From positions 29,022,202 to 29,086,201 of the forward strand of contig NC_055987.1 in the NCBI RefSeq assembly GCF_018446385.1: a stretch of DNA of 64,000 nt, read 5' to 3'. Positions 2,946 to 61,291 of the stretch are shown one piece after another. This DNA is from Zingiber officinale. Taxonomy: Eukaryota; Streptophyta; Magnoliopsida; Zingiberales; Zingiberaceae. Position 1 is the first letter of the stretch. The number at the start of each line of letters is the position of its first letter. The notes under the pieces were generated by a model. The model was not told where the DNA came from. It saw only the letters and a program-made list of their open reading frames with translations, and searched no databases. The position numbers and the translations under genes were made by a program.

Positions 2946-3114
2946 AATTGGATCAATTGGGAGCACTGTTTAAAGCCTTGGCAGAGCGTTTTCTCCGTAG
3001 TTCTTTGCGAGCTTCATCTGCGACTTTTCTGCGATTCTTCACGCGAGCTTTCAGATCTTCACTGCCAGTTCTTGAAGGCACTTGAGGGTGTTTCTCCAAG
3101 GTTCAAGAGGCAAC

Positions 3115-4233
3115 TGATGGATCGAAAGCGCTAGAGGGGAGGGGGGGTGAATAGCGCTCGTGGCTATTTCGTTTTTCGAAATCGTAAAAGCTTGTTCAGA
3201 AATAATGCAGCGGAAAAGTAAATAAAGTAGACACGAAGGATTTACTTCGTTCGGAGCCTGTGACGACTCCTACTCGAAGGCCCGCGATCCTTGATCGCTT
3301 CCGGTGGGCAACAACTATAATTCGTAAAATCTATTACACGCTAAGTACAATTCAAGAAGAAAAGAATATTGTACCGACAATAAAAGGAATAAAGCTGAAG
3401 CTCCGAATTGTCGTTGCAGCACTTCTGAGTCGAGACGTTAGCAGCTTGTCGCACGGAGAATGCTTAGAAGATGGTTGTTCCTTGAAGCTGCACCTCAACC
3501 CTCTTTTTATATGAGGTTTCGGGCGCCTGGGACCTTTCTGGGCACCTGGAGTGTGACGTGGCCAGCCAACTAGGTTGCTCCACGTGGTGAAGTCGCGCAG
3601 GGGATAAAATTTGGTCCTGGGCGTCCGGACCTGTTCCGGGCGCCCGGATCCATTCCGGGTGCCCGGACCACCTTTTTCCAGGAGCCGCTTCTCCTACAAA
3701 ACAAGGTTAGTCCGAGCAATTTCGTACCCTGCAAGATAATGTTAGAATATGATAATTCATAAGTGAAAAAGAGCTGACACTCTTCGGACTGTCCGAGTCT
3801 GACTTCGGATTCCCAACCGGAAACTCTAGGTCGACTCGACGCCTACTGTTCCCTCTACGGGGAACGCGTCCTCACCTACTCCACTCAGGAGATTTACCTG
3901 ATGCTAGTCCGGTCCTCCAGACCGACTGGACTTTTCGCCTAGGGTTACCACCCCCTAGGACCTAAGGTTACCGCCCCTTAGGGTTTTTCTCCACCTAGGG
4001 TTACCGCCCCCTAGGACCTAAGGTTACCGCCCCTTAGGGTTTTCCTCCACCTAGGGTTACCGCCCCCTAGGACCTAAGGTTACCACCCCTTAGGGTTTTT
4101 CACCTGCCTAACCGCAGCTAGGACTTTCCTGAGACACTCATTCAAACATGTTAGATCACACACTAACTTAACTTTGAATCCTTTGCCATTATCAAAACTA
4201 AGGTTCGATCGTCGGATGCTTCCTGCACCAACA
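3115..4233 (-). repeat. 3' LTR of element B
   Basis: 1119 bp, nearly identical to 11256-12331. On the plus strand it opens TGATGGATCGAAAGCGC and ends GCACCAACA, giving TG...CA on the minus strand. It differs from its partner mainly by about 43 bp extra in the GGGCGCCCGG array (near 3617-3660). The minus-strand TATA (CATATAAAAAG) is at 3503-3513, and five GGGCGCCCGG-type words lie at about 3518, 3537, 3617, 3637 and 3656. Confidence 0.85.
3938..4105 (+). repeat. CCTAGGGTTACC tandem repeats in LTR B
   Basis: About three units of roughly 58 bp, each carrying CCTAGGGTTACCGCCCCCTAGG followed by a CCTTAGGG half. The same array recurs in the partner LTR (about 12036-12200) and in solo LTR C (about 7370-7565), so it is an ancestral LTR module. 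Confidence 0.8.
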
Positions 4234-4247
4234 ATCTCCCCCTTTTT
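4234..4247 (-). other. Polypurine tract of element B
   Basis: Minus-strand AAAAAGGGGGAGAT immediately precedes the 3' LTR start (TGTTGGTGC). This is the normal place and composition for plus-strand priming in copia-type elements. Confidence 0.75.
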
Positions 4248-4679
4248 GATAATGACAACCGAAATTCAATGTTAAGTAAAAAATATGCAGTTATGTATAA
4301 GCACAAGAACCAAGATTTATGTATAAGCACAAGAACCAAGATAAGCGTGATAGCAAGATAAACATAGCTCCCCCTTAATATAAGTTATTCTCTTTGAATT
4401 TTTTACTAATAGCCATAGCTCCCCCTTAATACAAGCTCCATTTAAAATATTTCTTTGAATTTCTCTACTCTCCCCCTTTGCCATATATCAAAAATGAGCT
4501 AGTTTTGAAAAATTTAACTTTTCAAGACAGAATTTAGCAGAAAACATTTTAACTTAGGCAAGGAGCAAGTGAAAGGCAACACCTTAGAATTGATTTTGCT
4601 TGAAGAGATATAGCAAAAAGGAACTCTTTTTAACTTAGTGTATTTTGAGGAGTTTCCAAAATTTTCACAGGAAAATTTT

Positions 4680-4830
4680 CAAAACACAATTTTCAACTTC
4701 AGAAATTTTCAAACAAAATTTTCAACTTCAAAAATTTTCAAACAAAATTTTCAACTTCAAAAATTTTCAAACAAGATTTTCAACTTCAAAAATTTTCAAA
4801 CAAAATTTTCAACTTCAGAAATTTTCTGGA
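4680..4830 (+). repeat. AT-rich short tandem repeat inside B
   Basis: About five copies of a 27-28-bp unit containing AAATTTTCAACTTC and AATTTTCAAACA. It lies in non-coding DNA between B's second gene and its 3' LTR. Confidence 0.75.
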
Positions 4831-4984
4831 AAAAAAAAACATTCAGGTTTTTAAAGAAAATTTCCAAGGAAAAAAAATTCCAAAGTTTTAAATAATTTTC
4901 TAAAAAACTTTTTTTTTTAACTTAATGCATTTTGGAAAAAGTTTCAACTTAAATAACTTTCTAACAAGATAAAAAAAATTTTCA

Positions 4985-5125
4985 AAGTAGAGGACACTTG
5001 AAAGTTTTAAATTTGGAGAAAGTTTTTGAGAATGCTACTTAAGGCATGTTTTTGAGTAGAGGACACTTGAAAGTTTTAAATTTGGAGAAAGTTTTTGAGA
5101 AGGCTGCTTAAGGCATATTTTTGAA
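4985..5125 (+). repeat. 69-bp tandem duplication inside B
   Basis: GTAGAGGACACTTGAAAG begins both copies (about 4987 and 5056). The copies stay nearly identical through TTTTTGAGAAGGCTGCTTAA, with single-base differences. Confidence 0.75.
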
Positions 5126-5884
5126 ATGAATTTCAAGAATACTTAAGGAAAAGGAGAAGCGATAACCTTATTTTTTAATAGCTTGCCATTTGTTTTAGTA
5201 AGGTATCAGAGCCCTAAAGTCCAAGCATGAGTCAAGATTTGTTTTGATCAGGTATCAGATCCCTTAAGTACAGACATGCTTAAACTTATTATTTCCTTCA
5301 CCAACTGTCTAACCGTTTAGCTACTTGCTGATTGCCTAGAGGGCAACAGTGTTCACTTGGTTAGTCAAGTCAAGTCAATTGATCCAGTTAGATTTGACTA
5401 AGGCTGGAAGACTTGATTTGATTACTTTTAATCACGTATTTAACACCCAGACTCATATTGATGCACAGAAATAAGCATTCTCGAGTCCAGGCTGTACCCT
5501 ATGCATCTCACACCGTTCTATGTTTTACAAACACAATCAAGGTAAACCTAGGTATTTGTGAGATGCTCTGGTTGAGTCCTGGGGGAACATGATTTCTAAG
5601 AGAAAATCCTAGGCTAAATCCAACTTTTGAAAGTCTAGTAAAGTAGAGATTTGAAAAATCAAAGTTTGCCTAGAATTTTAAAAATGTGATTAAAAGACTG
5701 ATCTATTAGATTAAGGTATAGTTAATCAAGTCGAAGTAAAACAGTCTATTAGATTAAACAGTCGACATAGATAAAAGAGTCATAATAGAGCTGCTACATG
5801 CTGTACTAGAGTCATAATAGAGCTACAGTCGGAGCTACTGAGATGATGAAGGAGGTGGTCCGGAACCCAGCGACCGGAGTAGTG
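5126..5884. other. Non-coding tail of element B
   Basis: About 760 bp between the end of B's second gene and the tandem repeats. It has no open frame and no family I recognise. A short repeat, GAGTCATAATAGAGCT, occurs at about 5776 and 5809. Confidence 0.5.
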
Positions 5885-6389
5885 TCAGGAGCTCAGTGTG
5901 ACGAGCCCGATCGTCCTCTCATAGATCTCGGCGCAGGTCGGAGAGCTCCTGCCGTAAATAATAGTGGAAAAGATGTGTAGGCTGATGTCTATGTCTAACC
6001 TATGACACAGGGCATAGAGAAGAAAGGAGTGAAATGGACGCATCACAGCAATGTCGTGAGTGGTCAACGATAGAATACAAAGTACTAGAACCCTATAAAG
6101 GGCGTAGTCCTGAATTCTAAGGTTAACTGACCTAAACTGGGTCTCAGTGGGATCACGCTGGTCCTCAAAGAAATATGAATAGATCGTATCGAGGGTAATA
6201 TGTGAGTAGGGATCTCCAAAAGGTAGCTCCCTAGGAGGATAGCATAAAAAGGTGCAGGGTGACTCTCGTAACCCTAGAAACTCACGAATGGTAGTGGGAG
6301 ATAATGTGATATCCGTGCCAGCTGCCCTAGTGGTATAGGTGAAGTCGTCTACTTTTACTAGGTTGTTGTAAAATTCGGCACATAAACTT

Positions 6390-7700
6390 TGTTGGATCGA
6401 GACGCGCTAGAGGGGGGGGGGGTGAATAGCGCTCATGGCTATTTTGATCGTATCGGAATCGTAAAACTATCAAAGTAAATATACGCAGCGGAAATAACGA
6501 ATGCAATCACAGAGGGACACAAGAAGTTTACTTCGTTCGGAGCCTAAGGCGACTCCTACTCGAAGGCCCGCGATCCTTGATCGCTTTCCGTGGGCAACAA
6601 CTATAAGCTCGTAAAATGTACAATAAGATATTACAATTGAAAGAACTAAAACAAATTATACCGACAACAATAAAGTAGCAGAATCTGAAGCTCCGGGTTG
6701 TCGGGGACTTGTAACAGCACTTCTGGGTGTTTCTAGAGCAGCTTGTAGCGTAAGGATTGCTTGGAGTTCGTTATTCAGAGCTGCTGCTCGAGACCCCTTA
6801 TAAAGGGTGTTCAAGGCGCCTTGAACCCTTCACCAAGGCGCCTTAAACAGCCGAGTCAGCCGTGGAGATCAGGAGCGAACTGGTCGAACTTCATCAAGGC
6901 GCCTTCAGCCTACCCAAGGCGCCTTCAACCTTCGACCCAAGGCGCCTTGAACTTCATCTAAGGCGCCTCCAACCTTCTGCGCTGGCTTTTCCTGGTTCGC
7001 ACCCGAGGCGCCTCCAAGCTCCATGGAGGCGCCTCGGACACTGTTCATCCGAGTTGTAACTTGCTCCTTTGTTAGTCCCAAACACATACCCTGCAAAACA
7101 AAGTTAGCACAGAAACATAATGAATGATAATAATGAAAGTTTTGACAAGATTCGAACTGTCCGGGTCGGATTTCCCGAAACCCTAGGTCGACCCGACGCC
7201 ACTGTCTACCGGGAACACGTCCTCACCTACTCCACTCGGAGATTTACATTGCCGGTCGATCCTCCGGATCGCTGGACTTTGCTCAAGACTGACGCCGCCG
7301 GACTTTCTGCTGGACATCCGCTTCCCGGCTAGTCCAGTCTTTCACCTGGTTCGCGACACCAGGACTTTCCACCTAGGGTTACCACCCCCTAGGACTTTTG
7401 CCTGAAGCCATCGACCTGCCAAGACTTTCCGCATAGGATTACTACCCCCTATGACCTAGGGTTACCACCCCCTAGGGTTTTTCCCTTTGCCTAACCGCAG
7501 CTAGGACTTTTCTCCACCTAGGGTTACCACCCCCTAGGACCTAGGGTTACCACCCCCTAGGGTTTTTCACCTGCCTAACCGCAGTTAGGACTTTTCCTGA
7601 AATACTCATTCAACATGTTAGATCACAACACACCTTAACTTTGAGTCCTTTGCCATTATCAAAACTCAGGTTCGATCGTTAGATGCTTCCCGCACCAATA
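6390..7700 (-). mobile_element. Solo LTR C inside element B
   Basis: 1311 bp, starting TGTTGGATCGAGACG and ending GCACCAATA, flanked by AACTT at 6385-6389 and 7701-7705. It shares blocks with LTR B (GCGCTAGAGG(n)TGAATAGCGC, ACTTCGTTCGGAGCC, ACTCCTACTCGAAGGCCCG, GTTCGATCGTTAGATGC), so it is a sister family with a different U3 word array. Orientation is minus by homology to B. The terminal TA in place of CA is a point change. Insertion split B's accessory gene. Confidence 0.75.
6790..7040 (-). promoter_or_regulatory. TATA box and AAGGCGCCTT array of LTR C
   Basis: Minus-strand CCCTTTATAAGGGG (6792-6805) is the TATA region. Directly upstream of it, in minus orientation, are eight AGGCGCCT palindromes at about 6813, 6837, 6898, 6918, 6941, 6961, 7007 and 7022. 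The first word starts about 10 bp from the TATA, as in LTR B and the 8161 module. Confidence 0.65.
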
Positions 7701-8160
7701 AACTTATGTTTATTGGGATGGTACACTCAACAAGGTTTCGCAACCTATAGTGGTTTATAGCCTCGGTGACTGGAATACAAGAGCGTAGAAAGAACGATCT
7801 ATCTATACATTTGGTTCTAATGGCCATGTAATTTGTTGACATAAACTTAATCCTAAGTTCGTCGGTTGGAAACCTAGGGTCAATGTTAGGTGTAGAGGGC
7901 CCAGCACCAGATTTAGAACGCTTCCTAAATTTCAAACTAATATTACACTAAGAAATAAACAAGCATTATAAGAAATAAAGTTTAGGAGGGGATAGACATT
8001 TTACCGAGGAGCCATTGTAAGAAATTTTAGAACTGACGACCTCGGTTGAGTCACGACTCCGTATCAACCGCGGAAAATTTAAATTTTGAAAGTCTTCGCA
8101 GGGAAGCCAAAAAGCTTAAGGAAGACTTGAAGGTGCAAGGGTAGGGAGCGCCCCCTGCCC

Positions 8161-8285
8161 CCTATATATAAGGGAGTTCGGGCGCCCGGACCTGTTCCGG
8201 GCGCTCGGGGTCGTGTGAGGCGGGGCGCTCGGGTTCTCTGCGGGCGCCCTGAGTCCGAATACCGAGGGTGCCCGCCCCCGGTTTT
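8161..8285 (-). promoter_or_regulatory. Internal promoter-like module of B's accessory gene
   Basis: Minus-strand CCCTTATATATAGGGG (about 8159-8174) is an excellent TATA box about 145-160 bp before the ATG at 8015. Immediately upstream of it lie about five GGGCGCCCGG-type words (8180, 8196, 8222, 8240, 8268). The arrangement copies that in LTRs B and C, yet it lies inside the element. It could be a true internal promoter or a relic of another LTR captured with the gene. Confidence 0.5.
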
Positions 8286-9460
8286 TGACCCTTGTTTGTA
8301 CGTTTTTTTTTTAATGTTTTAATTAATTTAAAAACGTTTAAGTTAATTTGATTTTAAACATGTTTAATTGGAAATTATTTTAAATTAATTCAATTTTGAA
8401 ATTGTTTAAGTTAATTTGATTTTTGAAAATGTTTAACTTAACTTACGTAAGATTTAAAATTTAGTTTGCTTAGTCATCTCACCCGATCTATGTTTTCAAT
8501 CAGGGGCTCCTATTATTCTGTGAGATGAATTAGTTCAATTTATAGGATTTTGTTTAACTTTATGTTAGATTCGGGTTTAGCTTTGGGTTCAACAAGTAAG
8601 CGTTCTTTGGATAAACTTCTGGGCTATGGTGAGTCACAAGGAGCTCATTAAAGTAACCATGCCTTCGAGGTTTCCCAAATAGTCCTACCAATTGAGCTTA
8701 ATACTAAACCTTGGTCTAACTAGTTAGGATCCATTTAAGGGTAGCTTCGGTTAGTTCCACTTGGCCAAATGCACCAGGTCGAAGCCATATCTTCCTAGAC
8801 ATGCGATGCCCAAGTTTTCCCAACGTACTATCATCCAAAAACTTCACCAGTACTGTGCTTCAAGTTAAAATTTAACCCTTTTTAATCTATCCTTATTTAC
8901 CCATCCAGGTAATCTACTCTTGTTTACCCATTTCGGGTAGATTAAGTTCGGTTACCCTGTCGGGTAAATAGATTTTGGAGTTGCCAGCTATTCTAGACTC
9001 TCCTTCTATTTGAGTTTTAAATTTATTTTGAATTTTGAATTTTGAGTTTTTTATTTTGAATTTTGAATTTTAAGTTTTAGGTTTATTTTGAATTTTGAGT
9101 TTTATTTTGAATTTTGAATTTTAAGTTTTAGATTTATTTTGAATTTTGAGTTTTAGATTTATTTTGAATTTTGAGTTTTAAATTTTTAAATTTGAGTTTT
9201 AGATTAATTTCGAATTTTTAAATTTGAGTTTTAGATTAATTTTGAATTTTTAAATTTGAGTTTTAGATTAATTTCGAATTTTTAAATTTGAGTTTTAGAT
9301 TAATTTCGAATTTTTAAATTTGAGTTTTAGATTAATTTCGAATTTTTATTGTTTTGGCTCCCCCTGGATCATAGCCTCGATAAGGTTTATTGAGGTAATG
9401 TATTTGATCCTTAGGAACCCAATAATGTCCAAGTCCAACTTGATTGATCAGGTTGGACTT
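8286..9460. other. AT-rich non-coding middle of B
   Basis: No coding potential seen. It contains runs of TTTAATTAATTTAAA-like text (8310-8460), short TACCC/GGGTA repeats (8895-8970) and the tandem repeats listed separately. Confidence 0.5.
9010..9350 (+). repeat. AT-rich tandem repeats (about 31-34 bp) in B
   Basis: First a block based on ATTTTGAATTTTGAGTTTTA. Then, from about 9185, about five copies of a unit TTTAAATTTGAGTTTTAGA plus TTAATTTCGAA. Confidence 0.75.
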
Positions 9461-9466
9461 GGCAAC

Positions 9467-9805
9467 TCATGCTTGGACTATTTTTCTATTTGGTTTGTTT
9501 ATTAAGGATAGGTAAGATTTATATTTCTTTTTATATCCTAGTCCAGTTCGATTGTAGATTGCCCTTTGTGTCCCAAGAATCAAGTCAAGATTCTTGGATC
9601 CCAAGGAGAATCGTTCTAGGGTAGTTTTCAAATCCTTTACCTGACTTTTCAGATTGGAATTCTCTTCCTCAAGTTTTTGAACTTGAGTTGAGGTTCTAGT
9701 CTGAACTTGATCAGTTAAGGATTCGTTGTTTGGTGTTTCTTTAAGGAGTGTTACCTCCTTTAGAAGCGTTTTGATTCGAATCTTGGACTTAGCTACTTTA
9801 TGCAT
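9467..9805 (-). CDS. Coiled-coil linker fragment of a copia gag-pol polyprotein (B)
   Basis: A 112-residue frame with a leucine-heptad coiled coil (KLEEENSNLKSQVKDLKTTL) followed by FSLGSKNLDLILGTQR and RTGLGY. That last signature is typical of the stretch between gag and protease in plant copia elements, and element F carries a related version at about 60040-60180. It ends without a protease, so only the start of the pol side survives. It is separated from gag by about 96 bp of non-coding sequence. Confidence 0.6.
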   Translation of the reverse strand: MHKVAKSKIRIKTLLKEVTLLKETPNNESLTDQVQTRTSTQVQKLEEENSNLKSQVKDLKTTLERFSLGSKNLDLILGTQRAIYNRTGLGYKKKYKSYLSLINKPNRKIVQA

Positions 9806-9901
9806 TAAATAATTAATTAAGCTATATAAACGATTTTTACTTACAGAGAGGTTCGGTCCTTCGGAAACGGATGCGGATCCGTGGCTTCTCTCGGACTCGA
9901 T

Positions 9902-10990
9902 TTATGATTCGTCCTCACTTCCGGATCCGTTGGTGTAGTCCCGGGCTGTCAAGGTGAGAAAGTTCGTCTGTTCTAGTTCTTCGTCGTCGGATTCCTCGGA
10001 AGAAGACTCGTCCCATGTTGCCTTCAATGCCTTCTTTCTTTTGGGTTTCTTTGGATCCTTCTGGTTCGGGCAATTTGCCTTGATGTGACCCTTCTGATTG
10101 CATCCATAGCAGGTCACTTCGAATTTAACCTTCGAGCTTGGTTGGGCTTCTTTAGACTGAATGACCTTCATGAGATCCTTTTTGTTGAAGCCCTTCTTTT
10201 TGCAGAGCTTCTTTACTAAGTTGACTATTTCGGTTGTAAGTTCATCGTCATCTTCTGAATCTGATTCTTCTTCTGACTCAGGTTCGGTTCTCCGCTTGTT
10301 TTTTGACTCACGCGATCTCCCTGTTCCTGCAACCAAAGCCAACCCTTTCTCGGTCGGGCGTGCATTAGTCTGTTCATGAAGTTTGAGTTCTGCAAACAGT
10401 TCATCTAATTTAATGGTAGATAAGTCCTTGGAGACCTTGTAGGCATCTACCATGGATGCCCACAAGGTGTTCCTTGGAAATGCGTTTAGAGAATACCTTA
10501 TGATGTCCCGGTTGTCTACCTTCTGTCCAATTGCATGAAGCCCATTGAGCAGATTTTGAATCCGGGCATGGAGTTGGGCAGCTGTTTCACCTTCCTGCAA
10601 TTTGATGTTAAATAATTTATTAAAAATTAGGTCTCTTTTACTTACTTTGGTGTCGGATGTCCCTTCGTGAAGTTCAATTAGTTTCTCCCACAACTCTTTG
10701 GCACTGTTGAAGGGGCCGACGTGGTTGAGTTCTTCTTTTGATAGGCCACACTGGAGGGTGCAGGTTGCTTTGGCATTAGCTTCCACTTTCTTGATCAAAG
10801 ATGCATCCCAGTCCTCGTACGGTAGTGGTTTGCCGGTGCTGTCAGATGGTAGTTCGAATCCAGTTTTGACAATTATCCAGACTTCAAAGTGAGTCTGGAG
10901 ATATGCCTCCATCCGACCTTTCCAATACCCGAAGTCGTCTCCGGTGAATAGCGGAGGGCGGGCAGTACTGTAGCCTTCTTGAAGGGCCAT
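9902..10990 (-). CDS. Copia-type Gag protein of element B
   Basis: An intact 362-codon frame starting MALQEGYSTARPPLFTGDDF. The N-terminal part (FGYWKGRMEAYLQ, ELWEKLIELHEGT, IQNLLNGLHAIG) matches the UBN2/gag-polypeptide family of plant Ty1/copia elements. An acidic Ser/Glu stretch (about residues 235-255) precedes one CCHC zinc knuckle, CYGCNQKGHIKANC (about residues 294-307), and a Lys-rich then acidic tail. It should form virus-like particles and bind element RNA. The ATG is 252 bp inside the PBS. The frame is uninterrupted, unlike other retroelement genes here, suggesting recent activity or selection. Confidence 0.88.
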   Translation of the reverse strand: MALQEGYSTARPPLFTGDDFGYWKGRMEAYLQTHFEVWIIVKTGFELPSDSTGKPLPYEDWDASLIKKVEANAKATCTLQCGLSKEELNHVGPFNSAKELWEKLIELHEGTSDTKVSKRDLIFNKLFNIKLQEGETAAQLHARIQNLLNGLHAIGQKVDNRDIIRYSLNAFPRNTLWASMVDAYKVSKDLSTIKLDELFAELKLHEQTNARPTEKGLALVAGTGRSRESKNKRRTEPESEEESDSEDDDELTTEIVNLVKKLCKKKGFNKKDLMKVIQSKEAQPSSKVKFEVTCYGCNQKGHIKANCPNQKDPKKPKRKKALKATWDESSSEESDDEELEQTNFLTLTARDYTNGSGSEDES

Positions 10991-11241
10991 TTCAGTTTTA
11001 CCTAAAGTAAAAAAACAACCAAAAAGGAATGTCCCAGGACTTGGTCCTGGCTTAGTAGTGCGGTAGGAAAAAATGGATCACGAACTCGGGTGGTGTTGCA
11101 CCAATTCCGAGAAAAATCGATTCGAGGGGAAAAGAATTAGAATATAGCTATGAGGCTAAATTCTAATCGACTCTGAAAATAAAATAAAAATACCACGAAA
11201 AAATATTTTGAATGGTGGTTGCACCGATTCAAAATGACCCC

Positions 11242-11253
11242 GCTCTGATACCA
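11242..11253 (-). other. Primer binding site of element B (tRNA-iMet)
   Basis: Minus-strand TGGTATCAGAGC is the classic copia PBS complementary to the 3' end of initiator Met-tRNA, and is a perfect match. It lies 2 bp from the 5' LTR end at 11256. Confidence 0.9.
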
Positions 11254-11255
11254 AT

Positions 11256-12331
11256 TGATGGATCGAAAGCGCTAGAGGGGGGGTGAATAGCGCTCGTGGC
11301 TATTTCATTTTTTGAAATCGTAAAAGCTTGTTCAGAAATAATGCAGCAAAAAAGTAAATAAAGTAGACACGAAGGATTTACTTCGTTCGGAGCCTGTGAC
11401 GACTCCTACGCGAAGGCCCGCGATCCTTGATCGCTTCCGGTGGGCAACAACTATAATTCGTAAAATCTATTACACGCTAAGTACAATTCAAGCAGAAAAG
11501 AATATTGTACCGACAATAAAAGGAATAAAGCTGAAGCTCCGAATTGTCGTTGCAGCACTTCTGAGTCGAGACGTTAGCAGCTTGTCGCACGGAGAATGCT
11601 TAGAAGATGGTTGTTCCTTGAAGCTGCACCTCAACCCTCTTTTTATATGAGGTTCCGGGCGCCTGGGACCTTTCCGGGCGCCTGGAGTGTGACATGGCCA
11701 GCCAACTAGGTTGCTCCACGTGGTGAAGTCGCGCAGGGGATAAAATTTGGTCCCGGGCGCCCGGACCACCTTTTTCCAAGAGCCGCTTCTCCTGCAAAAC
11801 AAGGTTAGTCCGAGCAATTTCGTACCCTGCAAGACAATGTTAGAATCTGATAATTCATAAGTGAAAGAGAGCTGACACTCTTCGGACTGTCCGAGTCTAA
11901 CTTCGGATTCCCAACCGGAAACCCTAGGTCGACTCGACGCCTACTGTTCCCTCTACGGGGAACGCGTCCTCACCTACTCCACTCAGGAGATTTACCTAAT
12001 GACAGTCCGGTCCTCCAGACCGACTGGACTTTTAGCCTAGGGTTACCACCCCCTAGGACCTAAGGTTACCGCCCCTTAGGGTTTTTCTCCACCTAGGGTT
12101 ACCACCCCCTATGACCTAAGGTTACCGCCCCTTAGGGTTTTCCTCCACCTAGGGTTACCGCCCCCTAGGACCTAAGGTTACTACCCCTTAGGGTTTTTCA
12201 CCTGCCTAACCGCAGCTAGGACTTTCCTGAGACACTCATTCAAACATGTTAGATCACACACTAACTTAACTTTGAATCCTTTGCCATTATCAAAACTAAG
12301 GTTCGATCGTTGGATGCTTCCCGCACCAACA
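11256..12331 (-). repeat. 5' LTR of element B
   Basis: 1076 bp, near-identical to 3115-4233, opening TGATGGATCG and ending GCACCAACA on the plus strand. It has lost about 43 bp of the GGGCGCCCGG array that the 3' LTR keeps, and shows scattered point differences. The minus-strand TATA CATATAAAAAG is at about 11639-11649. Confidence 0.85.
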
Positions 12332-12690
12332 GCAACAACGAGCAACAAGTAAGCAAAAAGAAGTGTATTTCACTTGTATTTCTGTATTCTCTTCTTGTAG
12401 TGGTGTTGTGTTGTTGTGTGAGTTTGTACGAGGCTTCTCCACCTCTGGTTGCGACCGAGAAGGAGGTTTGCATAGTGGAGATTATGTCGTGTGTGTGGAT
12501 CCTTGGATTAGTTACCTCTTCTTGAGGTGGATACCAAGTAAACCCTAGGTGTTAGTGTTGTGAGTATTTTGTTTTGTTTTGTCTTTGTATTCCGCTACAT
12601 ATTATCAAGACGAAGCAAACGACGCAAGGAGCGCGACGAAACGCTATTCACCCCCCCCCCCCTCTAGCGGCCATCAAGGTCCCAACAACC

Positions 12691-23716: not shown

Positions 23717-25963
23717 TGGCCAGTTCTTCTCGTCCATCCGACCTCGCCCCCGGCCTCTGATATACCACTACTGAGAGCCGGTTCGATGAGAGGGATGCGC
23801 TGAACTTCACCCTAACCTTTGAACTTCCATCTGACCATGAATTGATATTAGCCACACTCTCCGATCGGCCACACGACCCTCCGACCGGCACTGTTTATTT
23901 TTTTCGAGATCAGTTCGTGGTCGGTCTGCGCTTTCTTATTCATCCGTTCATCCTTGAGGTGTGCAACTATTTCCGCCACCCGCTCGGCCAACTCGTCCCT
24001 AACTCCTTTAGGTTGCTATGCGGGGTGATTGCCCTCTTTAAGCTGCACGACATCCCCTTAGTCTCTAAGACTTTCCACTACTTCTACTATCCCAAACAGT
24101 CCGAGTGGGGTACTTTTCTCTTCCAATCGCGGATCTGTCTCGTTTTCTTCGACAAGATGCCGATCTCGAATAAACATTGGAAAGAAAATTATTTCTATCT
24201 TCGTTTTCCCGAGCGGTCGTCCTTCCGCACTAAATGGCAGACCACTGTGCCGAGCCCGCCGGACCTCGGTAAATATAAGAGCCAGCCAGATTACCTTCAT
24301 GCAGCCAATCTGCTGGCTGGGCAAAGATTTAACATCAACAAGCTGCTCCACGAGGGGGTGCTATTTATATTTGGACTGAGCCCGATCAGAACGAAGCTTC
24401 CGAGCAACATGGATAAGCATTTTCCTTGACCCCCTTCCTTTTGATCTAACTGATTTATTCTTCTTTTATGCAGCCGATATCATGTGGCGCGCCAAGGTTG
24501 CTGATCGGATGAAGCTGAAAGTTGCCCAAGTGGAGGCGACAACTGCGAAGGAGATGGCCGATCTAGGCATCGAACCGGTCGGCTCACACTGGGGTGAAAG
24601 CGAAGAAGCTTCTCCTGCAGTTGGAGAGTCGGTCATTCAGATCCCTGCAACTGCACCGGTCGGTGATGCTATCTCGTCCGCTGGACAACCAGCATCGGAA
24701 GAAGCGGGGCACTCGACCGAGGACTCCCCATTGATAATACGCAAACGACGCCGGACGGATCTCCACACCCAGTCAGCTACATCTGTGGAGCCAGTGACTG
24801 AGCCGACCGGCGCCCCTTCTGTAGCAATCGCCCCGGCCCCTGCTCCAGTCGAGGCCATTTCTTCGGATCGAACTCCTTCCCAGCTTGATCTGCCGGTGGC
24901 TTCCCTTGGAGCGCCGCCCGTCAGTTCCTAGCCACTAGCACCCCTTTGGCTTAGGCGTTCTAGTATAATATCCGCCCCGCTTGGCGAGTCATCCGGGCGC
25001 GCAACCTCAGCTCAATCTAATCCGAGCGGTCGTCGAGTGGTTAAGGCCGTCCTCCACCTCCCAACAGAACAATTTCTCCTGGCGGCTGATCGGCCAGTCG
25101 CCCCCGAGCATCATATTACTATCCGCGGACCGCTCGCCAAGATATGGGACGATGCGAGGGCCCGCGTCGCCTTGATGACTCCCGGTCAACTCGGCGACAA
25201 CCACTTGCAGCAAGCTACCGGGGTATGCTTCTTAACACACTACATGACTATTTGACTTGGTTCGTGATATTATTTCCTCTGTGCGCAGAATTGGGTAGAG
25301 AACATCGCAGTCAGCAACCGCCTGGCTGCACTGGAGGAAGAATTGAAAAAGCTTCAACTTTCTGGGGGGACGCCAACTCAGGGGCCCTCATATGCCACGC
25401 TTCGAGCCGAGCTGAACAAATCGGAGAAATTACTGGCGGCCGAGCGGCACAAGTCCTCTGGCTTGGAGACCAGGGTAGCTGGACTTGAAGCCCAGGTCAA
25501 GTCTCACGACCAGGAGATGAAGCTGGCGACCAATAGAAAAAATAAGGTCGTCTCCGATTTAGAGGCAAAGAGTGTGCAGGCCCGAGCGCTGAAGCAGCGC
25601 GTCAAGGAGTTGCCCGATCTGCTATCTACTGAGCAGGAGGGCCGATCGGCCGCCAAAGCTAAACTTCAAGGAGACAAGAAAGATCTCCAAGACGCTCTTG
25701 ACGCTTCCCGAGCTGCGCTAAAGGAATATCAAGACGGTGAATCAGGCCGTTTTGAGGTGATGAAACAAAATTATCTCCGCTCGGACAAATTTGGCGAGAA
25801 GTTTAGCGATCGACTAGTTCTAGCATTTGAAGAAGCTATCCGGGTGACAACGGTTTATCTGAAGGCTAAGGGCCAACTTCCGGAGACGGCCTCCATCCCT
25901 CCTAAAGACTTTGTCGGTCTGCTAGAAACCATCCTCGAGCCCATGTTTAAAGCCTTGGAGTGA
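23717..25963 (+). pseudogene. Antisense gene of element E (putative gypsy-type transposon ORF)
   Basis: Runs opposite to pol, between pol and the 3' LTR, as in Grande/Retand relatives. An ATG at 23717 (MASSSRPSD) is followed by an early stop near 23758. The open part 23842-24429 has FHYFYYPKQSEWGTFLFQ, FDKMPISNKHWKENYFYL and LLHEGVLFIFGLSP, matching the family named 'putative gypsy type transposon' (PF04195). A likely intron (acceptor TTTTATGCAG near 24474) leads to 24482-24931, acidic and Pro/Thr-rich. Another (acceptor GTGCGCAG at 25288) leads to 25289-25963, a long coiled coil ending EPMFKALE. Function is unknown even in intact relatives. Confidence 0.6.
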
Positions 25964-26902: not shown

Positions 26903-27964
26903 CTATTCGACGACTCTGAAGGGCCCCACCCAGGGAGCTTCCATCTTGCTCACATCACCAACCGGCTTCACCTTCTTCCATACCAGGTCACCGACCTGGA
27001 ATGCTCTGGGAATTACACGCCTGTTGTAATTCTGCTTTATTCTTTGCCTGTATGCCATCAGCCGGACGACAGCTTTAGCTCGCGCCTCGTCCACTAGGTC
27101 CAGCTCCAGCTGTCTCCACTCGACATTGTCCCCATCGTAGTTCTGGATCCGATCGGACTCGACTCCGACTTCGACTGGGACGACCGCCTCGCCCCCGTAC
27201 ACCAAATGGAACGGTGTCACCCCCGTTCCCTCCTTTGGGGTTGTGCGAATGACCCATAGCACGCCGGGCAACTCGTCCACCCAGCTTCCTCCCACGTGAT
27301 CGAGCCGAACCCGAAGCATTCGTAGGATCTCCCAATTGGCTACCTCGACTTGACTGTTGCTCTGAGGATACGCCACGAAAGTGAAGTGTTGTTCGATGTC
27401 GTATCCCTTGCACCATTCTCCGAGCTGCTGACCAACGAACTGTCGCCCGTTATTCGAAATGAGCCGACGAGGAATGCCAAACTGACAAATTATATGTTGC
27501 CAGATGAACTTCTTGACCATCTGCTCGGTTATTTTGGCTATTGGTTCGGCTTCGACCCACTTGGAGAAATAGCTGACCGCCACTAATAAAAACCTCCGCT
27601 GCCCGGTCGCCATAGGGAAATGTCCCACTATATCCATACCACACTGGTCGAACGGGCAGGACACAGTAGACGCCTTCATCCTCTCCGTTGGCCTATGGGA
27701 GAAGCTGTGGAACTTCTGACAAGAAAGGCATGTGGCGACGGTCCGAGCGGAGTCTTCCTGTAGAGTTGGCCAGAAGTATCCGGCCAGCAGGATCTTCCTA
27801 GCCAACGATCGCCCGCCCGGATGACCTCCGCAAGATCCTTGATGTACTTTCTGGAGAATATATTCTACATCTTCTGAGCTGACACACTTCAGCAGCGGGC
27901 GGGAGAACGCCTTTTTGTAAAGCTGGTCCCCAATGAGTGTGAACCAGCCGGCTCTTCTCCTCAA
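26903..27964 (-). pseudogene. Integrase of gypsy element E
   Basis: A 353-residue frame. The HHCC zinc domain (HQGSCGGHPGG, CLSCQKFH) is followed by the core with FDQCGMDIVGHFP (first Asp), LISNNGRQFVG and QVEVANWEILRML (Glu). The usual SDNG-type motif reads SNNG, so the second catalytic Asp appears to be Asn. A C-terminal part with YNRRVIPRAFQVGDLVWKKV and WVGPFRVVE follows. The frame is open, but the altered active site argues against function. Confidence 0.8.
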
Positions 27965-28153
27965 TAGTTGGGCTTCCTCCCGATCGGACGACGTGGCTTC
28001 CGAACGTAAAAATTCTATTATGGTTGTTCTTCAATCACTCGGGAATGTGAGGCCTTCCATCCGGTCGATGTGCGCCACCAAGGAAACCTGCTCAATTGGC
28101 TGTTGGATGACGATCGACGATATTGAGCTAGCGAGCTTGGCTAATTCGTCTAC

Positions 28154-28489
28154 TTACTGGTTCTCGGCTCGGGGGATCTTCTGTATGACAACCTCGATGA
28201 AGTTAGTTCTGAGCTTCTCATAGGCCTCCGAGTAGACCCGGAGCCTTGCGTTGTTTATCTCGAAGGACCCCGAGAATTGCTGAGCGGCCAATTGGGAGTC
28301 AGAATATAGTATCACCCGGCTGGCTCCCACATGTCGTGTGGCTTGTAGGCCGGCTATGAGGGCCTCATATTCTGCCTCATTATTTGTTGCCCAGTAATTC
28401 AGACGGATGGATAGATGCATCCGCTCTTCTTGAGGAGAAAGCAGCAAAATACCGATTCCACTACTGAGCCGAGTGGATGACCCGTCCAC
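28154..28489 (-). pseudogene. Second (archaeal-type) RNase H of element E
   Basis: Motifs MDGSSTRLSSGIGILL (first Asp), NNEAEYEALIAGL (Glu) and YSDSQLAAQQ (Asp) match the extra RNase H domain of Tat-lineage elements. A stop codon at about 28154 falls just before VDELAKLA, so the final part is cut off from the frame. It continues the pol reading of the adjacent segment after a stop. Confidence 0.7.
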
Positions 28490-28498
28490 AAATACTTT

Positions 28499-29296
28499 TC
28501 ACGAAGCTTCGGGCTCAGGATTGTGTACGTCAGTTACAAAATCTGCCAAGGACTGCGCCTTAATCGCTGAGCGAGCTTGATACTGGATGTCAAATTCACT
28601 TAGTTCCGTCGTCCATTTGATGAGCCGCCCGGACGCCTCTGGATTCAGGAGCACTCTTCCCAACGGGCTATTTGTCATAACGATGATCGTATGTGCCAAG
28701 AAATAAGGGCGGAGTCTCCGAGAGGCGAGGACTAAAGCGAACGCAAGCTTCTTGAGGCCAGTGTAGCAAGACTCGACATCTTTTAAAATGTGGCTCAGGA
28801 AATACACGAGCTGCTCTTCTTCGCTTCCTTTCACCAACGCCGAGCCGACAGCATGCTCGGTGGAGGACAGGTATATACGGAGTGGTTCGCCTACGTTCGG
28901 CTTAGCCAGCACAGGTAAAGAATTCAGGTACATCTTCAGCTCCTCGAATGCCTGATTGCACTCCTCGTCCCATTGGAACTTTGTGGCTCGGCACAAGATC
29001 TTAAAAATTGGCAAGCTTCGGTCGGCTATCTTAGAGATGAATCTCGACAATGCCGTTATCCCGCCGGTGAGGCGTTGCACTTCCCTCAGATTCCTGGGAG
29101 GCGACATGTCTTGCAGTGCTTTCACCTTGCTAGGGTTCGCCTCTATGCCCCGCTCGGTCACGATGTATCCCAAGAAGCGCCCGCCTTTTGCTCCGAATAA
29201 ACATTTTTGGGGTTCAGCTTGACTCCATACCTCCTCAGTGTTCGGAAGGTTTCCTCTATGTCTGTACAAAGATCGTTTAATTAGTATATCATCCAC
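28499..29296 (-). pseudogene. Reverse transcriptase C-terminus and RNase H of element E
   Basis: Starts at the catalytic box, which reads AVDDILIK where YVDD is expected. RT thumb motifs FLGYIVTERGIEANPSKV and VQRLTGGITALSRFI follow, then RNase H text (LRIYLSSTEHAVGSALVKG, YFLSHIL, WTTELSEFDIQY). The loss of Tyr and the stops between 29297 and 29389 mark decay. Confidence 0.75.
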
Positions 29297-29389
29297 TGCA
29301 TTTATTTTAACTCACACTTTTAGAACACGATGTTCATTAGCCCCGTATGCGTCTTTTCGATCCTACAATTATAACAGTATGTTCCCTTA

Positions 29390-29842
29390 TCAGTGATAAA
29401 ACTCACTTTTCCCGATCTTCCACCAAGTGACTTGGTGGTAGCCCTGATATGCATCCAGTATGCATATCAGCTCGCATCCAACAGTAGAGTCTACCAGTTG
29501 GTCGATCCGGGATAGAGGGTAAAAATCCTTCGGGCATGCCTTATTTAGATCCCGGAAATCGATGCAGACTCTCCATTTGTTGTCTGGCTTGGAGACCAGC
29601 ACCACATTGGCGAGCCAGCTCAGGAATTGCACCTCCCGTATGTGGTCGGCCTCCAGAAACTTCTCAACTTCAGCGCGGATGATGACATTCTGTTCGGCGC
29701 TGAAGTCCTTCTTCCTCTGCTTCACCGGCCGAGCGTCCGGGCGGACGTGAAGTTCGTGCTGCGCTACGCTCGGCGAGACCCCTGGCAGCTCGTGGGTCGA
29801 CCAAGCGAAGACGTCACAGTTTTGCTGGAGATATCTGATCAT
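29390..29842 (-). pseudogene. Reverse transcriptase N-terminus of element E
   Basis: Motifs CDVFAWSTHELPGV, KQRKKDFSAEQNVIIRAEV, WLANVVLVSKPDNKWRVC, IDFRDLNKACPKDFYPL and the start of RT motif A, LDAYQGYHQ, are clear. A frame break follows before the YVDD region. Confidence 0.8.
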
Positions 29843-30031
29843 CTTCTCCTTCTAACTCGGCTCCAGGTCGGATGCGATGAACGTAGTGGTATCCGGTTGG
29901 ACAGGGTGGATCTTTACTTCCTCCTTTTCTTCGTAAATTAAAAAAGGTGGCTTTTCGGTTATAGCATTTACCTCAACGCGTGGTGCCTTCCGAGCAGCAT
30001 TTGCTTCAGCTCGGACCATCTCCACATAACA

Positions 30032-30589
30032 TCACCGGGCTGCTAGTTGGTCTCCGTGGACTTCTCCAACTTGATCTTCTACGGGGAATTTGACCTTTTG
30101 GCAAAAGGTGGAGACGACCGCTCGGAATTTGTTGAGAGCCGATCGCCCCAAGATCACATTGTACGCGGAGGGGGTGTTGACTACGATGAAGTTAGCAGTC
30201 CGTGTTCTTTTGAGCGGCTCCTCTCCCAACGAGATAGCTAGCCGGACCTGTCCGACCGACAAAACTTCATTACCGGTGAACCCGTAGAGGGGGGTTGTCA
30301 TCGGCAGTAACTCGGCTTGGTCGATTTGCAATTGGTCGAAGGCCTTCTGGAAGATTATGTTGACCAAGCTGCCTGTATCAATAAAGATGCGGTGAATAGT
30401 GTAATTAGCTATTACCGCTCGGATGATGAGGGTGTCATCATGTGGGACTTCGACTCCCTCGAGGTCCCTAGGTCCAAAGCTGATCTCGGGCCCGCTCGCC
30501 CTGCTCCTGACTGCAATCAACCGCATGGATCGTGAGCTGCCTTGCATGCGCCTTCCTTGCCCTGTTGGAGTCACCTCCGGTTGGTCCAC
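30032..30589 (-). pseudogene. Aspartic protease region of element E
   Basis: Contains the protease active site IHRIFIDTGSLVNII, followed by FTGNEVLSVGQVRLAISLG and YNVILGRSALNKFRAVVST, the usual flap and ILGR motifs of gypsy proteases. Stops separate it from RT. Confidence 0.78.
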
Positions 30590-30692
30590 CAGCGATGATG
30601 TTAATTTCTCCTCGGGACACGTTGCTTCTATTCTCTTCCTCCCGAGCGGATGGCCTGGGACACTCGTGTGATGCCTGAGGTTGAGTCCTAGG

Positions 30693-30878
30693 CTACTGAT
30701 GATGTTGCCGCTCGGGGGATCCTCTCTCTACACGCCGACCAGGGCTCTGGTGTCGATGTCGCCGGTCCGGCGAAGGTGATCGACAGCGATAGTTCCTTGG
30801 CGTAGGATGAGCGACTGGGGGGAGACTTCGACAATCGTGCGTGTTGTGGGTTGCTGACTGATGGAGTGAACAAAACAT
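30693..30878 (-). pseudogene. Zinc-knuckle-like segment of element E gag
   Basis: FCSLHQSATHNTHDC matches the C-x2-H / H / C pattern of Tat gag proteins. It is followed by an Arg/Ser-rich tract (RCRSPSPDRRHRHQSPGRR). It lies between the gag core and the protease. Confidence 0.6.
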
Positions 30879-30998
30879 GGGAGTCCATACCTTCCCCCTG
30901 GGCTTAGGCCGATCGACCGCTACCTGTTGAACGGCGTGCGGCCTTGCTTGCTGATGAGGCCGGGCTGCTTCCTCCCGAGGTCCTCTAGGTCGCTTCCG

Positions 30999-31556
30999 CT
31001 AGGCAGAGGCCGGTGGTTCAGATGGTGCTTCCTTCCTTCTGGCCGCCTGCGCTTCCTCTACGTTGATATACTCATTGACCTTGTGCAGCATATGGTCGTA
31101 GTCGCGAGGCGGCTTTCTGATGAACGAGCGGAAGAAATCACCATCCACAAGCTCCTGTGTGAACGCGTTCATCATAGTTTCTGAAGTGACCGTTGGGATG
31201 TCCATGGCCACCTGGTTGAAGCGCTGGTTGTAGGCTTGGAGTGGCTCCTTCGAACCTTGTTTGATGGCGAACAGATTGACGCTGGTCTTTTGGTAGCGCT
31301 TGCTGCTCGCAAAATGATGGAGGAAGACCGTTCGGAAATCTCTAAAGCTCTTAATTGATCCATCCGGCAACCTCCGGAACCAGCGTTGAGCCGAACCGGA
31401 TAACGTAGTAAGGAAAACCCTGCATTTGACCCCGTCGGTGTACTGGTGAAGAGTGGCTGCGTTATCGAACTTACCGAGATGGTCGTCCGGATCGGTCACA
31501 CCACTATACTCCCCGATCGATATTGGAGCATAATGCTTCGGGAGAGGGTCTTGCAA
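30999..31556 (-). pseudogene. Gag core of element E
   Basis: 185 residues of the Retrotrans_gag type: YSGVTDPDDHLGKF, LTTLSGSAQRWFRRLPDGSI, SFRDFRTVFLHHFASSKRY and LQAYNQRFNQVAMDI. The upstream part is broken by stops towards the PBS. Confidence 0.8.
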
Positions 31557-31982
31557 GATCGCCTCCGAGAACTAGCGATTAACCCGCTCGGGGGATGACT
31601 CCGCGCGCGGTGCCTTCCCCTTTCTGACGTCCCGTAAGGGTGCTTCATCGAACGATCCCTGGTTGGCTAGGGCCAATTCCGACGACGTTTGGAACAATGC
31701 TCAATGGAATGGAATAGGGGCGGCCGGCGCGTCCCCTGTCATGCCGGTCTGCCCCTTGTTCTGAGCCCAGGTAGAATATTGTTCTGGTCGGTCCTCCATT
31801 GCCACTCGGCCTCCAGAAACCGAGGCGGCCTGCTGCGCTATTCTATCCGCTTGAGCCTTCTGTTGTTGCTCCACCATCTTTGCGGCTCATGCCTGAATGA
31901 GTGCCTCTAGTTCCTCGGGAGAGAGCGTTACCATGAGTTGGCGTCCAGCTTCTTCCATCTTCTCAGCTCGGAACCAGGTGCG

Positions 31983-59643: not shown

Positions 59644-60213
59644 CTAGGTTTGAGACTCAAGTCCGTCTCCAAACCACTTGTCACATTCCATGACTCTTCT
59701 AAACTCCCAAGTAAAATTCACTTGAGATCCATTAGCCATGGGTCCCAAATTGACTCTTTGAGCTCCCCTAGAGCTCTTAACCTTGGTCACCTCCCTAGGT
59801 GACTCATCCATAATTACTAGGTCACATCGGTGCACCTCCGATGACACTTGGCCTACAAGCCTAACCTTTTTAACCTTGAATACCTTGTCCTTGGTTAATT
59901 TCTTCTTACCATTAAATGAATTTTCCTTGTCATTTATTGGCTTCTCCTTACTATAGTCATATGCAATCCTAGCATAAGACTTTCTCTTAGTCTTGGAGAC
60001 ACTAGATCGATATCCCAAACCTGATCTATCATTGTTGGATCTTTGGCTACCCAACACTATACTCAACCCTCTAGATCCAACATTGAATCTATCTAGGGTT
60101 TTCTCCAATTGATTAATCTTTGCTTTCAAAGCTTGATTTTCCCTTTCTAGGTCTCTAACCCTAGAGTTGATTTGTCCACATTGGACATTCCTAAACCTAC
60201 CCTTTCTAGGCAT
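59644..60213 (-). pseudogene. Gag-pol linker of copia remnant F
   Basis: A 189-residue frame. The coiled coil INSRVRDLERENQALKAKIN is followed by RFNVGSRGLSIVLGSQRSN and DRSGLGY, the same signature as 9467-9805 of element B, so F and B are distant relatives. A Lys-rich region and GSQVNFTWEF follow. No protease is seen. Confidence 0.6.
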
Positions 60214-60454
60214 GTGTCTCCCCTTCTTGGGATTAATGCCTTGATTCTACTAAGGTTATATGATCCACATTAACCCTACTCATATCATGATATTTAAATC
60301 CAAAATTTTGCATGGGTATATAATGGTAATCAAAATCATTTCTCCTAGCATGCATGGGAACATAAGAATTTGAATTTGAATTACGATTCAAATTTGGGTA
60401 TACGTCCCTTATCCTTGAAACTCCCCCTTGATTTGAGCTCCTTTTCTTCTTCTC

Positions 60455-60997
60455 CTATTTCTTTAAATGTGCAAGCTTCTTGATTTCCCTCTTCTTGGGG
60501 CATTTGGTGTGGTAGTGTTCCTTCTCTCCACACGTGAAACATCGAATGCACATTCTCCTCCTTTGGGCTTCTTCTTTCCTATAACTCAAATTAAATTCTA
60601 AAGGAATTGAATTGAGTTTAGGAGTTACCTCTTTCTTACCCAATGAACACCTGCTCTTGTAGTGTCCCTTTTCATTGCACCCGAAACAAATGATGTGGTC
60701 CTTTGACTTGACTTCGGTGGAGACACTCACTAAGTTTACCTCCAAGACCTCTTCTTCATCCGTCTTGAATTCTTCTTCAACCCTTGAGGATGTTGATGAT
60801 GCTTCCTCATCCTCCTTCTCCTCCTGATGTTGAGCATGGCTCAACTTCCTGTTGCACCACCTCCTCTCCTTGAGCAATTGAACCCATTTCCTTGGGCTCT
60901 CTTTCTTCTTGTATAGGCATAGGTTTTCCCAAGGAATCTTCTTTATTTTGCTCCAAAAATCGTGGACATTCTTGTATTTACCTACACAACTCATCAC
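60455..60997 (-). pseudogene. Gag C-terminal half of copia remnant F, two zinc knuckles
   Basis: 180 residues. An acidic stretch (EEKEDEEASSTSSRVEEE) precedes CFGCNEKGHYKSRC (about residues 109-122) and a second knuckle CFTCGEKEHYHTKC (about residues 154-167). The N-terminal gag part between here and the PBS is broken. Two CCHC boxes distinguish it from B's single one. Confidence 0.7.
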
Positions 60998-61291
60998 ATC
61001 ATTAGGTAAAATATCAATTAAAGTAGATATTACCTTATCATTTGCCTTTGATTATGAGGTTTGCTCCTTTGTCCAATGATGTGGTCAGAGTCTCTTTCCT
61101 TTCTTGTCTCTTGGGACATTGAATAACTCCTTGACCACCATCATGGTGTCCCAATCCGTATTGAAGAAGCCCTCCATCTTCATCATCTAATACGTGATGC
61201 CCCATAAGCCTCCTCCTTCGAACTTTAGAGGTGCTATCAAGCCGGCCATCTTCTTGCTTCCTCGGCGATTAGTCCGAAGGAGAGCGTCCTC

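Follow-up and report, generated by a model that had tools for sequence, protein, structure and literature searches.

A pol-less element of the sirevirus type in ginger carries a conserved, intron-bearing second gene behind a putative internal promoter

The 64,000-bp stretch of DNA analysed here (the window) spans positions 29,022,202-29,086,201 of contig C2 in the 3.09-Gb assembly of Zingiber officinale. The ginger genome was published as a haplotype-resolved assembly (PMC8342452), and because the assembly holds both haplotypes, the genome copy counts given below may include allelic pairs. On the minus strand, positions 3115-12331 are occupied by element B, flanked by the TSD GCAAC at 3110-3114 and 12332-12336. 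Its LTRs are about 1.1 kb each (5′ LTR, 11256-12331, minus strand; 3′ LTR, 3115-4233, minus strand) and are 97% identical over two aligned blocks. The 5′ LTR carries a TATA box at 11639-11649 and palindromes starting at 11762, 11683 and 11664, and the primer binding site, TGGTATCAGAGC, lies next to it at 11242-11253 (minus strand). Four polypurine-tract octamers, (A)AGGGGGAG, are found at 4236-4479 (minus strand), the last of which adjoins the 3′ LTR. AT-rich tandem repeats whose length varies between copies were seen in the linker (9031-9383) and in the 3′ region (4658-4855). The family to which element B belongs is abundant, with hundreds of copies, and of the sirevirus type (Ty1/copia). The copy in the window is damaged, its second gene being broken twice and its gag once. 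The closest pair among the 29 other copies of element B that we used shows a divergence of 1.4%.

An earlier note on this DNA had proposed a copia-like element with gag and without pol, and this description was borne out: a Pfam profile search identified gag as PF14223 (E 3e-17), with a zinc knuckle scoring slightly under the Pfam cut-off, and no pol was found in element B. The length of 362 codons assigned to gag at that time (9902-10990) was wrong. Other copies show that gag has 507 codons family-wide and ends at 9467 (9467-10990, minus strand), the stop at 9902 being premature and present, among 22 gag rows, only in the window copy and in one copy of a sister family, P, which is described below. 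The 3′ part of gag thus cut off (9467-9901) gave only weak coiled-coil matches in Pfam.

The second gene lies on the same strand, within a cassette that stands where P has pol. Its TATA box, start codon and 80-bp intron were located where the earlier note had placed them (about 8165, 8015 and 7925-8004, respectively). The TATA box of the putative internal promoter occupies 8161-8171 (minus strand), exon 1 is the 11-nt sequence ATGGCTCCTCG at 8005-8015 (minus strand), and the 80-nt intron at 7925-8004 (minus strand) has GT-AG borders. Without splicing, the frame opened by the ATG runs into a stop after four codons. Exon 2 is interrupted in the window copy: its 5′ part (7706-7924, minus strand) is separated from its middle part, which codes for a PF20167-like domain (5957-6384, minus strand), by LTR C at 6390-7700, correctly recognised before as a TSD-flanked solo LTR, with AACTT on both sides (6385-7705 including the TSD, minus strand). 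LTR C is missing from all five other copies read at 10 kb (L031-L035). These five copies all contain a stretch of 460 bp that is missing from the window copy, the size having been measured in the three whose two ends match letter for letter. The deletion junction lies in a 4-bp repeat, TACG, at 5953-5956, and because the window copy lost 460 bp, the codons from this junction to 5885 are out of frame (junction and tail, 5885-5956, minus strand). The 244-codon frame reported to close exactly at 5885 is consequently accidental, being read from a copy that carries both LTR C and a frame-shifting deletion, and the apparent stop at 5885 is fortuitous.

The intact exon-2 frame has 418 codons and would give a protein of about 414 residues after the predicted splicing. 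This protein consists of the PF20167-like region and a charged, coiled-coil-like tail. In all five copies it scored 39-41 bits against most of the PF20167 (Transposase_32) domain, which is below the 45-bit Pfam cut-off. The usual hydropathy threshold for a transmembrane segment is 1.6, and the best 19-residue mean of the second gene product was 1.55 in a crude test that gave no clear transmembrane segment; for this reason, the label 'env' given to the gene denotes its position and not a function.

We ranked the copies of element B by similarity to the second-gene protein of the window and aligned the region upstream of the gene in rows L002-L030 together with the window copy, the rearranged L011 being left out (29 rows, that is, 28 other copies and the window). 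All 29 rows have the same ATG, donor (GTAAAA) and acceptor (AG). Cells that depart from the majority, which are not independent because the rows are related, amount to 5.25% in the middle of the intron, 5.0% in the 5′UTR and, over the first 200 exon-2 columns, 2.4%. Only 12 of the 228 six-mers between the TATA box and the acceptor are fully invariant, donor and acceptor among these, indicating that the conservation of the splice sites exceeds chance.

We also measured N/S against an expectation in which mutation type and methylation context were matched. The six of the 29 rows under 94% identity were dropped, which left 23 copies; a run including truncated rows gave 0.58-0.69. N/S in the second gene was 0.50 for singletons, 0.33 for variants found in two or three copies and 0.46 for those found in four or more, with 0, 0 and 67 of 2000 draws as low, respectively, the last being a weak class. 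Since the copies had been ranked by likeness to the window's protein, N/S is biased in the region of the query; the C-terminus lies outside the search query, and its value of 0.54 for shared variants is thus largely free of this selection bias. In gag, N/S was 0.70 for singletons and 0.32 for shared variants across 15 copies of B. These codon changes indicate that the second gene is under purifying selection. As the earlier note had predicted, copies of B keep the frame open with low N/S (0.33-0.54): open frames of 415-434 codons were counted in at least 62 copies, 62 of 150 among the matches listed, of which two are marked as containing an internal stop. A chance ORF was ruled out by copy number together with N/S. 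We also weighed a view of B as a relic with two genes, derived passively by deletion, mobilised through its LTRs and carrying its second gene as unselected baggage. Such an origin would agree with a window copy broken in both genes, and PMC6317226 openly questions whether such extra ORFs have a function, but the long open frames, the N/S values and the invariant splice sites all speak against it, and we judge it distinctly unlikely.

Three GGGCGCCCGG-type palindromes, a motif of the U3 of B's own LTR, precede the internal TATA box (8178-8249, minus strand; starts at 8249, 8206 and 8187). With one mismatch allowed, GGGCGCCCGG has eight sites on the element strand of the 13.5 kb surrounding B, all of them within the two LTRs or directly upstream of the second gene, and two sites in the remaining 50.5 kb of the window, where both strands were counted; the palindromes adjoining the TATA box of the 3′ LTR have more than one mismatch to it. 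Measured from start to start in the window, palindrome and TATA box are 15 nt apart in the 5′ LTR and 16 nt apart in the cassette. An LTR-type palindrome lies before the internal TATA box in all 28 evaluable other copies, at a distance of 17 nt in 26 of them and of 15 and 13 nt in one each, and palindromes outside the LTR were absent from the eight P loci scanned. The internal promoter could be aligned with the 5′ LTR over 55 nt including the TATA box with a score of 23, a value reached by none of 300 shuffles (best 22), and an alignment of LTR C with the internal promoter scored hardly above shuffles (3 of 300 as high). Sireviruses carry palindromic repeats both in the LTR and upstream of the ENV gene, and none in the linker of ENV-less elements (PMC2829016), and an internal promoter was supported or suspected in these elements by Bousios 2010, but could not be identified (PMC2829016). 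Judged by the conservation of their sequences, the private promoter and the sense intron claimed for element B are both supported.

Splicing of the 5′ LTR transcript, or internal initiation on it, might instead be the sole means by which the second gene is expressed, the TATA-like box being inert. Splice acceptors have been predicted for the env-like genes of Athila and Bagy2 (PMC2829016) and splicing has been reported for Bagy2 (PMC7264820), and the TATA box is barely more conserved than the stretch before it, with 1.9% of off-majority cells in the 29 rows compared to 2.7% in the 60 columns preceding it. Yet the same 1.9% contrasts with 5.0% in the 5′UTR, and the palindrome-to-TATA spacing is fixed in 28 of 28 copies. 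Furthermore, efficient splicing of the LTR transcript before copying should leave intronless insertions. A pattern search allowing up to two mismatches located the unspliced start of the gene at 465 places in the genome and the spliced junction at none, for either of the two in-frame acceptors; the 465 places are a positive control that covers the gene start and not the exon-2 side of the pattern. Spliced retrocopies were accordingly set aside, an absence of matches not amounting to proof. Since the search gave no spliced copy, the template that is copied would be unspliced RNA, which lends support to the earlier suggestion that unspliced genomic RNA is what is copied. We consider expression from the 5′ LTR alone unlikely.

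Eight gag loci, chosen because no match to the second gene was listed nearby, were read downstream, revealing pol in five and the second gene in three. The pol of these P elements has copia-type domains, the integrase core and RVT_2, read as two pieces from the two loci of one copy. P and B cease to be homologous near window position 8361, some 0.1 kb ahead of the pol frame, and become homologous again near 5680, no more than about 40 bases past the stop of P's pol; these approximate ends delimit the cassette (5680-8361, minus strand). The second gene is absent from the three P copies that were read through to the 3′ LTR, each of which has four polypurine-tract octamers. A P-type pattern taken from just before the protease matched 783 places in the genome, which are pattern matches and not confirmed copies. 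The block has no TSD of its own and occupies the same place in other copies. A nested fragment with its own TSD was rejected: in 28 of 29 loci, L011 being rearranged, the B linker leads into the cassette, and it does so in all three further loci (L037, L039 and L043).

Five P gags, selected by likeness to the end of the window's gag, were read; they are 97-98% identical to the window gag, and four of them contain a stop. Their N/S was 0.77 for singletons and 0.38 for shared variants (138 and 35 of 1000 draws as low, respectively). In a tree of these five and 15 B gags, built after exclusion of the gapped rows L060 and L033g, a single clade of the P gags was rejected (log-likelihood lower by 65, p-AU 0.00015); most forks of this tree are open, and its well-supported branches alone force no more than one change between P and B. 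Linker variants are common to both types, being shared by L031 (B) and L038 (P) and by the window copy, L035 (B) and L040 (P). Finally, locus L085 (G000:C4:155222900-155223400) is a P/B chimera, P-like over positions ~53-201 and continuing as B cassette from ~194-205 on. The interleaving of the gags, the shared linker variants and L085 fit template switching between co-packaged RNAs of P and B, and gene conversion between genomic copies could be an alternative source of the mixing. From the interleaved gags we infer that B may be mobilised in trans by P. In L085, P-type sequence from before the protease is joined straight to the 5′UTR of the B gene, and the stretch read contains no palindromes or TATA box.

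Genes coding for PF20167 proteins are numerous in ginger, with at least 150 matches above the cut-off (150 of 150 among the matches listed). Eight of them were read, and those closest to the second gene were L076 (37% identical), which scores 58 bits against PF20167, and L081 (34%). Both start about 1 kb after the end of an RNase H that is 74% identical to that of P, and L083 (32% identical) likewise follows such an RNase H end. Upstream of a TATA box at 900, L076 carries seven palindromes that differ in sequence from those of B (CAGTCGACTG); its ATG is at 1153, and its intron splits the start in the same phase as that of B's second gene. Since these relatives share layout and intron phase, the second gene appears to be old within the lineage, as do the design of its promoter and its intron, and the likely ancestral order is gag, pol and gene. 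Because a sirevirus-type family carries this type of gene right after pol, loss of pol from a gag-pol-gene element, or recombination with one, is a simpler origin for B than capture, though not a proved one.

The earlier note had suggested that the gene may have been captured from another element, and the gene could in principle have come, together with its promoter and intron, from an unrelated donor of the Athila-like (Ty3) type. The aORF of a sunflower Athila is reported to match PF20167 (PMC11728184), and ginger has many other PF20167 genes whose element type was determined for few. The closest relatives found, L076 and L081, however, stand right after a sirevirus-type RNase H with the same layout, promoter and intron phase, and the palindrome is one that B has in its own LTR. 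We find no support for capture from an unrelated element and hold it to be very unlikely. An older exchange between lineages is possible given the Athila match. When read by eye, L080 and L082 have a short first exon followed by a phase-2 intron and then a basic stretch, and GATCGATCGA-type palindromes were counted upstream of the PF20167 frame in L080, which suggests one promoter design across families.

Taken as a whole, the element retains gag and a conserved second gene in the absence of pol, in support of the two-gene, pol-less element originally proposed. We regard it as probable that B is a non-autonomous element of the SIRE lineage (Ty1/copia) in which pol has been replaced by an env-position gene that is expressed from a spliced subgenomic mRNA, and that P serves as its helper, the transcription, splicing, packaging, helper use and protein function being steps deduced from sequence. 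The promoter of the 5′ LTR would drive synthesis of a genomic RNA that would be translated into Gag and packaged unspliced. The second promoter, with its palindromes about 17 nt before the TATA box, would give rise to a subgenomic mRNA, and removal of the 80-nt intron, probably from this mRNA, would join the four-codon start to the main frame and allow synthesis of the ~414-residue protein. Reverse transcriptase and integrase would be supplied by P, which has gag and pol and no second gene. P and B share gag, the linker and the 3′ region, and template switching of co-packaged RNAs would mix their gags. Because no transmembrane segment stands out, the second-gene protein may be a cofactor of Gag or RNA, and our guess is an accessory factor acting with either. 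It is doubtful, to our mind, that P and B are halves of a split gag-pol-env-like sirevirus, co-packaged, recombining in gag and both selected as mutual suppliers, that is, a bipartite retrotransposon and not a host with its parasite.

Element B resembles the sireviruses (SIRE/Maximus, with an env-like gene or eORF-3′F) in its copia gag, in its palindromes in the LTR and before the env-like gene, and in its repeated polypurine-tract octamers, several identical ones lying near the 3′ LTR in sireviruses and four in B (4236-4479). The sirevirus distribution of palindromes, in the LTR U3 and before the env gene and not in an env-less linker, is that found in B and P, and P has a copia pol. B differs from them in lacking pol, with an env-position gene in its place, and in its visible tiny first exon, intron and TATA box. 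An env-like gene is expected in sense orientation between pol and the 3′ LTR, a position held by L076 and L081; B has no pol to precede it. TR-GAG elements are non-autonomous and consist of LTRs and gag; B likewise has LTRs and gag without pol, but is not gag-only, adding a conserved second gene with promoter motifs and an intron. The CGG-CCG core of the sirevirus palindrome, as given in PMC2829016, is matched only partly by GGGCGCCCGG. Gene23 of Grande and other antisense aORFs are likewise additional genes with a promoter of their own within LTR elements (PMC7264820), as proposed for B, but in Grande the gene runs antisense and the element retains pol. A sense intron is also kept in Ogre and in the spliced env of Bagy2 (PMC6317226; PMC7264820); the intron of Ogre separates two portions of the polyprotein, whereas that of B follows a tiny first exon after a putative internal promoter. 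Titles and abstract openings on PF20167, TR-GAG, sirevirus introns and pol-less env elements contained no description of a pol-less arrangement of gag with an env-like gene.

The type of gene and the promoter palindromes are already known for sireviruses, and the sister family and the exchange of gag are the more interesting part of these results. The expression of the sirevirus env-like gene and the function of such extra ORFs are treated as open questions in PMC2829016 and PMC6317226. The second gene, the promoter motifs before it and its splice sites have all stayed under constraint in a family of hundreds of copies without pol, an argument that the protein is important to the element. For RNA, B provides exact predicted positions, namely a start near 8140 and a junction at 8004/7925, and the P/B exchange of gag provides genomic evidence for co-packaging of a helper with a dependent element.

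Other elements were seen beside or around B. The B copy of L033 (615-9123) is seemingly inserted within the pol of another copia element, pieces of which lie on both flanks. At 23761-24931 (plus strand) beside 26903-31571 (minus strand), the window has a Ty3 element with a PF03732 gag and an integrase, together with an oppositely oriented ORF that gives a weak match, below the cut-off, to PF04195 (Transposase_28), comparable to what has been reported for the antisense aORF of Retand. A second, decayed gag-like stretch with a zinc knuckle, a coil and a GLGY motif is found at 59644-61051 (minus strand) and is, by eye, of the sirevirus type and from a family different from that of element B.
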